DNA of 5,369 bases from Chloroflexota bacterium. GTDB lineage: Bacteria; Chloroflexota; Anaerolineae; Ardenticatenales; Ardenticatenaceae. The notes under the pieces were generated by a model. That model saw nothing but the letters and a program-made list of their open reading frames with translations, was not told the DNA's origin and searched no databases. This document shows, piece after piece, positions 2 to 4,709 of this stretch (the stretch's first letter is position 1; every line of letters starts with the position of its first letter). Both the position numbers and the translations under genes were made by a program. The DNA lies in the NCBI GenBank assembly GCA_003520455.1, contig DOUV01000172.1, positions 1 through 5,369 of the forward strand, given 5' to 3'.

Positions 2-1315
2 TCCTTCGAGGTGGGCGAGGAAACCGCCGCCGGCTACGCTTTCGCCCGGCGCGTCCCGGTGCAGGTGGCCGACATGGCGCGCGAAACCCGCTTCCGCGTG
101 CCCGTCGAGTTACTTGAGGCGGGCCTGCGCTCCGCGTTGAGCGTGCCAATGTTGGCCGGCGAACGGGTACTCGGCGCCCTGCAAGTCAACCGCGCCACCC
201 CCGGCCCCTTTGACGAGCACGACGTGCGCTTGCTGGGGCTGATTGCCAACCAGGCCGGCAATGCGCTGCAGCGCGCCAGGTTCTTCGAGGAACTGCGACT
301 CTACAAAGACGTTTTCGAGAGCACGGTGGATGCCGTGTTGATCGCCGACCTGCAGACGCGCATTATGGACGTCAACCCGGCCTTCGAGCGGCTTACCGGC
401 TTTCGTCGCGCCGAGGCCCTGGGGCAGAGGCCCAGCTTGATCAAATCACCCCACAGTACACCGGCATTCTACCGGCAGATGTGGGAGCAGATATTCAGCC
501 AGGGATACTGGGCCGGCGAAATCGTCAACCAGCGCAAAGATGGCGAGGTGTGGGACGCGTTCCTCACGATTTCTACAGTCAGGGATGAGCGCGGCCAGCC
601 GGTGGCCTATGTGGGCATCAACCGGGACATCACGGAATTGAAGAATCTGCAGCGAGAGCGAGAGGTGCTGCTGGAAGCCGAACAGCAGCGTGCCCGCCAG
701 CTGGCGGCTTCGTACGATCACACGCTCGACGCGCTGGTCGCCGCGCTCGACGCGCGGGACAAAGAGACCGAGGGGCACTCGCGGCGCGTGGTGGCGTACA
801 CCCTGGCCCTGGCGCGCCGGATGACCATCCCCGAGGAAGAGCTGGCCACGATTCAGCGTGGTGCGCTCTTGCACGACCTTGGCAAGATTGGCGTTCCAGA
901 TGCTATCCTGCATAAGCCCGGCCCGCTCACCGAAGAGGAATGGGCCATCATGCGCCGCCACCCTGAGTGGGGCGAGCGCATCTTGCGGGGCATTCCATTC
1001 CTCGACGGCGCGTGCGAAATCGTGTGCGCCCATCAGGAACGCTGGGACAGTGCGGGATACCCGCAGGGGCTGGCGGGCGAAACCATCCCGCTCGGTGCGC
1101 GCATTTTCGCCGTCGCCGACACCTTCGACGCGATCACTTCCGACCGCCCGTATCGCGCCGCGCGGCCGTACGCCGTCGCCCGCGCGGAGATTGAGGCCGG
1201 GCGCGGGACGCAATTCGACCCGCAGGTGGTCGACGCCTTTCTGCAGGTCCCGGAAGCGGAATGGTTGCGGCTGCGCGCCGAATCCCTGACTGCCCTTGAT
1301 TCAGCGGAGCCATGA
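2..1315 (+). CDS. GAF-PAS-HD-GYP sensor, probable cyclic-di-GMP phosphodiesterase (5' end outside window)
   Basis: HD-GYP proteins hydrolyse the second messenger cyclic-di-GMP; the GAF and PAS domains in front probably sense a ligand or redox signal. Numbering from the GTG at 11: the C-terminal half of a GAF domain spans about 1-93, a PAS domain about 97-207 (FESTVDAVLIADL to NRDITELK), a short coiled linker about 208-235, and HD-GYP about 240-420. Visible catalytic motifs are ExxxH (E252, H256), HDLGKIG (H288, D289), HPEWG (H317), HQERWDSAGYP (341-351) and DTFDAITSDRPYR (370-382). The usual HHE is HQE here, and the usual DG before GYP is DS, so metal number or activity may differ from the classic enzyme. 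The GTG at 11 is not the real start: the frame is open to the window edge and the GAF domain is already under way. The TGA overlaps the ATG of a decayed downstream gene. Family assignment is very secure; activity is inferred. Confidence 0.93.
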   Translation, partial: SFEVGEETAAGYAFARRVPVQVADMARETRFRVPVELLEAGLRSALSVPMLAGERVLGALQVNRATPGPFDEHDVRLLGLIANQAGNALQRARFFEELRLYKDVFESTVDAVLIADLQTRIMDVNPAFERLTGFRRAEALGQRPSLIKSPHSTPAFYRQMWEQIFSQGYWAGEIVNQRKDGEVWDAFLTISTVRDERGQPVAYVGINRDITELKNLQREREVLLEAEQQRARQLAASYDHTLDALVAALDARDKETEGHSRRVVAYTLALARRMTIPEEELATIQRGALLHDLGKIGVPDAILHKPGPLTEEEWAIMRRHPEWGERILRGIPFLDGACEIVCAHQERWDSAGYPQGLAGETIPLGARIFAVADTFDAITSDRPYRAARPYAVARAEIEAGRGTQFDPQVVDAFLQVPEAEWLRLRAESLTALDSAEP

Positions 1316-1430
1316 TCTCGTAGAATCGCGCCGCCGGCAGTGGAACTGGCAGCCTCTGGAAGCGATGTAACCAGGTGAATGAGGCGCTGCAGCAACACGA
1401 CCCCGGAACCAGGCCGTGTTCGAATCAGCC
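1175..1430 (+). repeat. Long imperfect direct repeat, left copy (HD-GYP tail plus next gene start)
   Basis: Aligns with 3658-4033 once the 119-bp insertion unit there is taken out, leaving 256 against 257 bases. By hand, 86 of 114 bases match in the HD-GYP part, and about 80% beyond it, with only three single-base gaps. Many differences in the coding part are synonymous, so these are paralogues that diverged under selection, not a recent copy. Confidence 0.8.
1312..1430 (+). pseudogene. Decayed 5' end of a PAS sensor-kinase gene (left copy)
   Basis: The ATG overlaps the stop of the HD-GYP gene (ATGA), but the fourth codon is TAG (1321-1323), and the frame is lost again near 1330 and 1400. 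The stretch aligns with 3914-4033, about 80% identical by hand. That second copy reads as an N-terminal leader and then a PAS domain beginning QAVFESAFDV. Here only the DNA match remains, and it stops at about 1430, just where the PAS domain should begin. A GTG at 1375 (reading MNEAL) corresponds to an internal ATG of the other copy and opens a frame with no PAS-like continuation. This is best read as a gene front left when the rest was lost or replaced by the following block. Confidence 0.7.
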
Positions 1431-1510
1431 GACGAACGGCATTGCCAAAACTGTGATCGACTGCTTTCAAAGACCCCGCGAAACTCTCCTGTTGCGCGGA
1501 GTAAACAAAT
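1431..1510. other. Gap at left island edge, no gene seen
   Basis: These 80 bases lie between the end of the repeat of the signalling genes and the stop codon of the minus-strand DinB gene. I see no coding signal and no stem followed by a T-run that would end the minus-strand transcript. It contains a 20-bp stretch (1465-1484) that matches 17 of 20 bases at 3632-3651, near the other edge of the block. Confidence 0.5.
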
Positions 1511-2964: not shown

Positions 2965-3555
2965 ATGTTGTCCAGGCCGCCAAACAAAAAGGAAGATCCC
3001 CGCGTCACGCGCACCCGCAACCTGATCCTGAATGCCTTTGCGGAACTCCTTCCCCAACAAGGATTCCACGCCCTGACCGTGCAGAATATCGCCGAGAAGG
3101 CAGGCGTCAACCGCGCCACGTTCTACGCGCATTTTCCCGATAAATACGCCTTGCTTGATTCCCGGGTGCAACAGAAGTTTCGTCAGGAAATTGAAAAGCG
3201 GACGCTCAATGCCTGCCACTACAGCGAAGGGAATCTGCGCGCCCTGATCGCGACCGTGTGTGAATTTGTGGCCCGAATGAACGCACACTGCAAGAACGCC
3301 GAAAACCAGTTCGAATCGCTGATCGAGACACAGATCAGGCAACAGGTGCAGGAACTGCTGGAATTCTGGCTGGAACAGATTGGCTCGGAGATCGACTCTC
3401 ATACGGCCGCCACCGCTGCGAGTTGGGCGCTCTACGGGCTGGCGCTGCAATGGAGCCGGGAGAAAAATCGCCTGCTGGCGGAGGAATATGCGGATCAGGT
3501 CCTGCCACTCGTGGCGTCCAATTTGTGCTTGACACGGGAAGGCGTCCTTTCTTGA
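2965..3555 (+). CDS. TetR/AcrR-family transcriptional regulator
   Basis: 196 aa, the usual TetR length. The N-terminal helix-turn-helix domain is clear: helix 1 at about 16-32 (RTRNLILNAFAELLPQQG), then LTVQNIAEKAGVNRATFYAHF at about 37-57, with recognition helix VNRATFYAHF, followed by DKYALL. Residues about 65-190 form an all-helical ligand and dimer domain, which is variable and gives no hint of the inducer. The start has a strong AAGGAG. It is divergent from the DsrE-CDGSH-DinB row, with a palindrome and direct repeats between them, so it likely represses that row and itself. Directly downstream is the tail end of a flavin disulfide oxidoreductase, suggesting the regulator once headed its own operon. 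The last residues (LTREGVLS) lie next to that junction and may not be original. Family very secure. Confidence 0.93.
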   Translation: MLSRPPNKKEDPRVTRTRNLILNAFAELLPQQGFHALTVQNIAEKAGVNRATFYAHFPDKYALLDSRVQQKFRQEIEKRTLNACHYSEGNLRALIATVCEFVARMNAHCKNAENQFESLIETQIRQQVQELLEFWLEQIGSEIDSHTAATAASWALYGLALQWSREKNRLLAEEYADQVLPLVASNLCLTREGVLS

Positions 3556-3557
3556 AC

Positions 3558-3641
3558 TTCCTTGATTCCATTGACGTGATCTACGTCTATCCCACAATGG
3601 CGGAGGCGTTGAAGACCGCGGTGCTCTCGTATTTCAAAGCC
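3558..3641 (+). pseudogene. C-terminal tail of a pyridine-nucleotide disulfide oxidoreductase (fragment)
   Basis: The frame starting at 3558 reads FLDSIDVIYVYPTMAEAL and then KTAVLSYFKA. This resembles the last stretch of the dimerisation domain in mercuric-reductase or dihydrolipoamide-dehydrogenase-like flavoproteins, where a strand with HxxPTxxEAL and a final helix are conserved. The His seen in most members is Tyr or Val here. The FAD and NAD domains are absent: the frame runs back into the TetR gene, and about 15 codons further on the sequence becomes an HD-GYP tail in another frame. So most of a roughly 450-residue gene has been deleted. The match is short, so confidence is moderate. 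Confidence 0.5.
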
Positions 3642-3770
3642 CCAACGAAACCCTATTGTCGCGCGGGCCCAGATCGAATCTGGAAACGGAACGCAGTTCG
3701 ACCCCGCCGTCGTGGCGGCCTTCCTGCAGGCGCCGGAAGAGGAATGGACGTGGCTGCGCGCCGAATCCCT

Positions 3771-3778
3771 GCCTGCCC
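3771..3778 (+). repeat. 8-bp target-site duplication, left
   Basis: GCCTGCCC, repeated exactly at 3890-3897 and immediately flanking the 111-bp element. The paralogous uninterrupted site (1288-1295) has a single GACTGCCC. Confidence 0.75.
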
Positions 3779-3889
3779 GTGAGCACGCAAATGTTGTCAG
3801 TTGCGCATGAAGCAAGCTTCACCCCGAATGACGAAATGCCGGGTATTTCAGAGCAGGCAGAAACCCACTGACGAGTTCTGCGTGCACAC
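3779..3889. mobile_element. 111-bp MITE-like element with 25-bp terminal inverted repeats
   Basis: The left end (3779-3803) begins GTGAGCACGCA and the right end (3889-3865, complement) begins GTGTGCACGCA. The two 25-base ends match at 19 positions, including GCACGCA and a second shared block GTCAGT. The element is flanked by a perfect 8-bp duplication. Removing the element with one duplication rebuilds the HD-GYP tail in frame, collinear with the intact paralogue, which serves as an empty-site reference. There is no gene inside; a small internal dyad GAAGC-AA-GCTTC lies at 3809-3820. Non-coding with inverted ends and an 8-bp duplication fits a MITE moved by a transposase elsewhere in the genome. 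I do not assign it to an IS family. Confidence 0.72.
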
Positions 3890-3897
3890 GCCTGCCC
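3890..3897 (+). repeat. 8-bp target-site duplication, right
   Basis: Second exact copy of GCCTGCCC, directly after the right inverted repeat. The interrupted HD-GYP tail resumes from here in the restored frame. Confidence 0.75.
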
Positions 3898-3913
3898 TTG
3901 ATTCAGCGGAGCG

Positions 3914-4195
3914 ATGATCTCGCAGATTGCGCCCCCGGTAGAGGAACTGGCAGCCTCAGGAAGTGAGTGTAACCAGATGAATGAGGCGGTACGGCCACCC
4001 GAAGCCCGAAACCAGGCCGTGTTCGAATCGGCCTTCGACGTGATCTTCCACCTGGACAAGAACGGGCGCCTGCTGGATATCAATCGCCGCGTGGAGGGGC
4101 TGACCGGATACTCGCGGACCGAGCTGCTCAGGCGGAGATGGAGACGGCGCTCTACCGCATTCGTGTCCTGCTGGCTCCAGACCCGACCGGCGTAG
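3914..4195 (+). pseudogene. Truncated PAS sensor histidine kinase (right copy)
   Basis: The ATG overlaps the restored HD-GYP stop (ATGA). The frame gives a leader of about 35 residues, then the first half of a PAS domain (QAVFESAFDVIFHLDKNGRL to LTGYSRTELL, about 36-72). After that the sequence jumps. From 4129, in another frame, it reads QAEMETALYRI, which resembles the EVETALYRIxQEALTN motif at the start of the ATPase domain in NarL/DesK-type kinases (HisKA_3 class), and then that match breaks off too. So the second half of PAS, the His-containing dimer domain and most of the ATPase domain have been lost, and this frame ends in a meaningless tail. A NarL-type receiver fragment follows, as expected for such a kinase. 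The PAS part is clear; the kinase assignment rests on the short ETALYRI match. Confidence 0.68.
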
Positions 4196-4353
4196 GGCCG
4201 GACAGCGCCCCCGCGTATCTCCCCCGAGGGCCTTGCAACAGGGCATTTTTCGTTGGGAAATCAGCGTCTGTCCTATAGACAGTCCGGATGTGACGCTATA
4301 GGATGTGATCGGCAGGGCACGTTTCCGGCCCGGCGGAGTATCAGAAGGCGCGA
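4196..4353. other. Non-coding remnant between kinase and receiver fragments
   Basis: No recognisable coding in any frame beyond short chance openings. It contains an 8-bp inverted repeat, TCCTATAG (4271-4278) and CTATAGGA (4296-4303), 17 nt apart, and a smaller dyad CTGTC-CTATA-GACAG (4268-4282) overlapping its left arm. This may be an old control region or chance symmetry. Confidence 0.4.
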
Positions 4354-4455
4354 ATGGGCGGAGCGAGGACTCTGATTGTAGATGGCCATGCCCTCGTACA
4401 CGGGCAGGTCAAGGAATTGTTGGCGCGGGAGGCGACTATCAGGGTGAGCGGTGTG
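4354..4455 (+). pseudogene. N-terminal fragment of a NarL-type response regulator receiver domain
   Basis: From the ATG the frame reads MGGARTLIVDGHALVHGQVK and then ELLAREATIRVSGVG, which follows the start of NarL/FixJ receivers (LIVDDHALVRxGLxxLLExxxxIxVVGEA). The second acidic residue of the DD pair, needed for magnesium, is Gly. The match ends at about residue 33. The phosphoacceptor Asp, the rest of the receiver and the DNA-binding domain are missing, and the sequence changes to the next gene remnant in another frame. It cannot be a working regulator. Its position after a kinase remnant fits a former two-component pair. Confidence 0.6.
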
Positions 4456-4709
4456 GGAAGTCAGTCAGGGCAGGCGGCCTGTGCTGGTGGATATGCACGC
4501 GGTCAAATCCCTGGACCGGAAGGCTTGTGTGTACTACGCCAGTTGATAAAGCTGCCAGAGCCAGGAGCACCGGCGCACTGCTGGTCGGCTCAGCCGTCCC
4601 CCGCGTTATGGCGAGTTTCTTCCTGGGGCTGAACCAGCCCAGTCACTCCGTCCGGTTATTCACGTCTGAAGCCGAAGCGCTTGACTGGTTGCGAGGATTC
4701 CTGGAATGA
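4448..4709 (+). pseudogene. Frameshifted STAS/SEC14-like small protein (C-terminal part)
   Basis: Frame 2 from 4448 reads AVWEVSQGRRPVLVDMHAVK and on to KACVYYAS, then TGA at 4544-4546. One base on, frame 3 continues VDKAARARSTGALLVGSAVP and ends SVRLFTSEAEALDWLRGFLE with TGA at 4707-4709. Joined by a single +1 shift near 4541, the two make one continuous protein of about 87 residues. It resembles the C-terminal two thirds of small STAS/SEC14-like proteins (DUF7793-type, from memory) that often precede PAS/GAF sensors in Chloroflexota. The N-terminal third is missing: a TGA at 4445-4447 and the receiver fragment stand there. The final TGA overlaps the ATG of the GAF sensor, so the two were probably translationally coupled. 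Most likely a pseudogene; sequencing error or recoding is less likely. Confidence 0.62.

Follow-up and report, generated by a model that had tools for sequence, protein, structure and literature searches.

The window, by which we mean the whole stretch of 5,369 nucleotides analysed here, contains a junction between the tail of an HD-GYP-type gene and the start of a PAS domain in two diverged copies (1185-1440 and 3666-4040), on either side of 2.2 kb occupied by other genes. The first copy is truncated in its PAS part and the second in its HD-GYP part. Between the two HD-GYP copies, Pfam identifies a DinB-like protein, a CDGSH iron-sulphur protein, a DsrE-like protein (scoring below the Pfam cut-off) and a TetR regulator. 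This block is enclosed by a 35-bp imperfect direct repeat (1465-1499 and 3632-3666, 28 of 35 positions matching), which adjoins the beginning of the second HD-GYP remnant; when one region was shuffled 500 times no equally high score arose, and the exact pattern of the bases shared by the two repeat copies was not found in viral contigs. The repeat may be the mark of a rearrangement, and the two truncated junction copies look as after an old insertion or deletion between tandem operons. Further downstream, an open frame at 4305-4709 sits directly ahead of a GAF-domain gene at 4706; its final portion (residues 89-132 of 134) has a DUF7793 match at E 1.2e-8, and the remainder is unmatched. The second HD-GYP remnant is interrupted by the short element that is the subject of this report (Table 1).

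Table 1. Coordinates of the element, its flanking repeats, the interrupted gene and the related site within the window
Feature	Position	Strand	Remark
HD-GYP-type gene, C-terminal remnant interrupted by the element (target)	3666..3916	+	with its 119 bp removed, aligns to the paralogue tail
Element-free paralogous stretch, a natural empty site; HD-GYP tail 1273-1315	1185..1440	+	
PAS-domain start, downstream	3914..4195	+	overlaps the HD-GYP stop as ATGA when read without the element; PAS match limited to the first part of the domain
MITE-like non-coding element with imperfect inverted ends	3779..3889	.	111 bp
Target duplication, left 8-bp copy, GCCTGCCC	3771..3778	.	identical to 3890-3897
Target duplication, right 8-bp copy, GCCTGCCC	3890..3897	.	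identical to 3771-3778
Left inverted end, GTGAGCACGCAAATGTTGTCAGTTG	3779..3803	+	19 of 25 positions equal the right end
Right inverted end, GTGTGCACGCAGAACTCGTCAGTGG (inward reading)	3865..3889	-	19 of 25 positions equal the left end

A preliminary description of this DNA had delimited the element by its 25-bp inverted ends and exact 8-bp flanking repeats, and both the coordinates and the counts are as it gave them. Counted from the tip, the two ends match at 9 of 10, 18 of 23 and 19 of 25 positions; the 18 of 23 represent the truly pairing part, and a base-by-base comparison extended to base 35 adds nothing. Neither the match of 19 of 25 nor the 10 of 11 found at the tip was reached when the element was shuffled 20,000 times with its dinucleotides preserved. 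When all 446 pairs of exact 8-bp direct repeats in the window with starts 58-3000 bp apart are compared, the GCCTGCCC pair encloses the best inverted ends (19/25; the runner-up has 14/25). The flanking repeat extends further as GCCTGCCC-G/T-TGA, with 11 of 12 positions matching, and the agreement of three bases past the 8 bp is either coincidence or a blurred edge of the duplication. The G+C content is 53% in the element and 62.5% in its flanks.

Removal of 119 bp rebuilds the interrupted frame, as had been claimed: the HD-GYP frame then ends in RAESLPALDSAER with its stop and overlaps the ATG of the PAS start as ATGA, and the paralogue (1273-1315) has the same C-terminal tail, ending in RAESLTALDSAEP with a stop and likewise with the ATGA overlap. 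The target site is single in the paralogue, as GACTGCCC. The closest match of the window's HD-GYP protein (11-1312) is a Chloroflexota MAG protein, P0002, annotated as 'PAS domain S-box protein [Chloroflexi bacterium]', with 86% identity over the whole query; its HD-GYP tail is similar, free of the insert, and ends in RAESLTAPDSAKR. Judged by this closest match, the host is probably a Chloroflexota bacterium. Searches with P0002 against viral contigs returned two stretches, neither of them a relative, and the HD-GYP protein matched 803 plasmid records, a Leptolinea plasmid among them. HD-GYP orthologues that naturally carry the insert had been named as one of two observations that would speak against the interpretation, and this was partly tested: none of the 5-residue words of the insert read in the gene's frame occurs in the 120 best-listed of 7668 HD-GYP homologues, the window's own protein included. 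Eleven word matches to two other frames of the insert among the same 120 look like chance. Inverted ends, duplication and restored frame are real and concordant signs, and because the inverted ends and the exact duplication are joined by an insert-free tail in both the paralogue and P0002, the segment 3771-3897 is a well-delimited transposition footprint.

The homology of the HD-GYP remnant to the paralogue was aligned from 3666 on. Pfam returns nothing for the fragments 3552-3665 and 3667-3777, the latter of which is the part of the HD-GYP remnant that is too short alone. Either the target was already a remnant at the time of insertion or it became one since. Since it is a C-terminal remnant only, the insertion is without visible effect on an intact gene in the window as it stands, and no host function of the element is indicated.

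The element was described as carrying no gene of its own, and our searches agree. For the reverse frame spanning the element Pfam gives no family at E 0.01, a protein-set search with this reading (one of six frames) gave no candidate homologue, and the other five frames contain stops. DDE_Tnp_IS66 (PF03050) has no match among the ten frames of the window scanned. The need for a transposase in trans follows from insertion by transposition together with this lack of a gene. Other kinds of short elements were also considered. For an RNA element, no Rfam family reaches the gathering score anywhere in the window. A stable hairpin finds little in its favour: folded as single-stranded DNA, the element is only slightly more stable than its shuffled versions (z -2.0, 8 of 200 shuffles equally stable), and the best fold leaves the two ends unpaired with each other. 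The exact duplication of 8 bp, and a paralogue free of the insert, speak against a REP-type hairpin or other non-transposon insert.

Prokaryotic MITEs are characterized in the available text of PMC10969869 as non-coding elements of <500 bp with terminal inverted repeats of ~4-30 bp and a target duplication. The element corresponds to this anatomy in its length of 111 bp, in terminal inverted repeats (19/25) that fall within the 4-30 bp range, in the direct repeats that flank it, and in being without transposase or other coding capacity. Two further MITE traits, AT-richness and a stable stem-loop, may be hinted at by the G+C content below that of the flanks and by the slightly stable fold. The earlier designation as MITE-like consequently holds for the anatomy; membership of a MITE family does not follow, as no second copy was found.

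The search for further copies covered viral contigs, plasmids, phages and genome contigs. Two-ended and one-ended patterns of the element had no match in viral contigs. A looser one-ended pattern matched 12 stretches there, several being the same stretch in different records, which we read as chance; none of the 12 has an inverted partner of at least 15/22 together with a 7-8-base flanking repeat within 4.5 kb inward in the stored stretch. Among plasmids, the whole element produced nothing convincing (two Streptomyces records at E 4), and of the single ends used as queries one had no match and the other one match at E 3. Nine plasmid records from Leptolinea and Thermomicrobium (one each), Deinococcus and Thermus contained no copy at <=3 mismatches (0/9). 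Seven phage records were matched, none convincingly; the best match (E 0.009) spans 31 bases within an Erwinia phage gene for a hypothetical protein. When the end sequences were searched as literature text, no bacterial mobile-element paper could be recognized by title among the matches listed. The one exact two-ended pattern applied to genome contigs had a single match, in a Legionellales MAG (G001). We reject it as a relative of the element: the BLAST alignment is confined to the 13 end bases covered by the pattern, and the locus is a palindrome of a different sort, rich in repeats. This palindromic repeat (L001, 3631-3770), REP-like in look, contains GTGAGCACGCAAAAGGCGCTTTGCCCACCCTAC, and the GTGAGCACGCAAAAGGCGCTTTGCCCACCCTAC palindrome has 121 matches at E up to 10 on the two strands of the 1.5-Mb G001 genome, with 40 out of 76 candidates scored. 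An exact two-ended pattern on chromosomes would miss a diverged Chloroflexota family, and metagenome families lie outside the searched data; the search was thin, and the finding of no second copy in these collections deserves little weight.

Target duplications of about 8 bp are produced not only by IS66 but also, for example, by ISL3, ISAs1, IS256, IS1 and ISH1-type IS5. The preliminary description did not recognise the ends as those of a named family. Taken jointly, the tips and the 8-bp duplication fit IS66-type ends, although not exactly. The tips of the element are GTGAGCA (left) and GTGTGCA (right). IS66 ends are given in excerpts of PMC11946415 as 20-30 bp long, starting GTAAGCG and accompanied by 8-bp repeats; the window tips depart from this consensus at the third base, G, and the seventh, A. 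For ISDge4, which belongs to the ISBst12 group with its single gene, PMC12898284 lists the ends GTGACTACTCAGCA and GTAACTGCTCAGCA, which start with GTGACT / GTAACT, and the 8-bp repeat CCTCGATG, and a listing in PMC3281130 includes two IS66 elements whose ends measure 22 and 35 bp and whose repeats measure 8 bp.

We compared the tips with ends computed at 40 IS66-transposase loci, namely 10 from three Deinococcus plasmids and 30 from genomes of the phylum of the Legionellales MAG, presumably Pseudomonadota; the 30 were drawn from 150 genomes of that phylum, 59 of which had a match, and none of the 40 comes from Chloroflexota. No match to the IS66 transposase is present in the plasmids of Leptolinea and Thermomicrobium. 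Loci were screened for an exact 8-bp repeat next to inverted ends matching at no fewer than 13/22 positions, and at 5/6 at the tip. Twelve of the 40 loci passed, with IS66-like elements of 1.7-3.4 kb. Ten of the 12 have GTAAGC, GTATGC, GTAACT or GTGACT tips beside their exact 8-bp repeats; the ends of the other two (L025 and L039) are not IS66-like, so that the screen yields false positives and these two are probably such. One pair of ends is identical at two loci (L020 and L024). Half of the 24 ends (12) share 5 of 6 tip bases with a window tip, and the mean is 3.83 of 6, a figure that takes in the two probable false loci. Two loci (L031 and L041) each combine a GTAAGC with a GTATGC end, which differ by A/T at base 4 just as the two ends in the window do. 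The exact window tip (GTGAGC or GTGTGC) is present in no sampled IS66-type end, and likeness fades past about 6 bases, with a best match of 7/10. Under the same screen, IS256 controls passed at 4 of 30 loci with a best tip match of 3/6 and IS1595 controls at 10 of 30 with 4/6, while IS6 (1 of 30 loci, 1/6) and ISL3 (0 of 30) provided too few ends to inform. IS66 is therefore favoured as the likely, though not proven, family of the element, a suggestion drawn from six tip bases and the 8-bp duplication.

Taken together, we consider it probable that the 111 bp represent a non-autonomous MITE-like element inserted in the tail of the HD-GYP remnant by a transposase of the IS66 kind. A DDE transposase acting in trans would bind both 23-25-bp inverted ends and join the element ends to both strands of the target with a spacing of 8 bp, and host repair of the gaps would then yield the two GCCTGCCC copies; that the enzyme would be of the IS66 kind is suggested by the tips GTGAGC/GTGTGC and the 8-bp duplication.

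The same mechanism could have been driven by a different DDE family with 8-bp duplications, such as ISL3, ISAs1, IS256, ISH1-type IS5 or an undescribed Chloroflexota family. The resemblance to IS66 is carried by only about six bases, several families make duplications of this size, and the ISL3 and IS6 controls offered almost no ends for comparison. However, the screened-in IS256 and IS1595 ends begin otherwise, and GT(A/G)(A/T) tips beside exact 8-bp repeats appeared in the IS66 sample only, which leaves another family a less likely, if still serious, candidate. Very improbable, by comparison, is the reading in which there was no insertion at all and recombination between two short direct repeats removed 119 bp from the paralogue, the inverted ends having arisen by chance. 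The 11/12 flanking repeat could indeed serve a slipped-strand deletion, but such ends were never obtained by shuffling, the insert-free tail is common to P0002 and the paralogue, and the 120 best-listed homologues lack the 5-residue words of the insert read in the gene's frame.

A further question concerns copy number and is compatible with the mechanism of an IS66-kind insertion: the element could be a one-off, internally deleted IS copy, i.e., a solo remnant, instead of a member of a multiplying MITE family. An IS66-like element of 1.7-3.4 kb deleted to 111 bp with both ends kept would look alike, and the collections searched contain no second copy. Against this, the ends and the duplication are just as well explained if the short form itself inserted, and the absence of copies means little when the host and related genomes lie outside the searched data; we regard a solo remnant as possible but doubtful. 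Similarly tentative is the idea of a hitherto unrecorded family of very short IS66-mobilised MITEs in Chloroflexota, with the 23-bp end GTGWGCACGCANANNTNGTCAGT and 8-bp duplications, of which this might be the first described copy.

MITEs are common and modest, and the value of this one is local: it is a cleanly delimited insertion with its empty site on the same contig, and its 23-bp end GTGWGCACGCANANNTNGTCAGT can be used to probe Chloroflexota for a parent IS. An IS66-type parent, if found, would add a parent family of MITEs; the literature on IS66 and MITEs showed no clear case in the portions available. The element is best called one of an ordinary kind, MITE-like with IS66-type ends. It shares with the IS66 family (including the ISBst12 group, ISDge4 and the Frankia IS66), as far as the excerpted sources describe it, the 8-bp duplication, the GT(A/G)(A/T) tips and inverted ends in the 20-30-bp range. 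Unlike IS66 elements, it is without a transposase gene and its ends diverge past about base 6, and unlike the sampled IS66 ends it combines G as third base with GC at bases 5-6. MITEPsy1 (100 nt, 18-nt ends, 4-nt duplication), in the available text of PMC3189936, is similar in size, in being non-coding, and in its imperfect inverted ends and target duplication; MITEPsy1 exists in multiple copies, a likely parent IS is known for it and its movement was captured by trapping, whereas one copy of the present element was found, and its duplication is 8 bp. MITEPye1 of Paracoccus yeei, with IS1182-like ends, is likewise a low-copy, non-autonomous element classed by its ends, and differs, according to the accessible part of PMC11578231, in having several copies and a known IS with similar ends, compared to the one copy found here.
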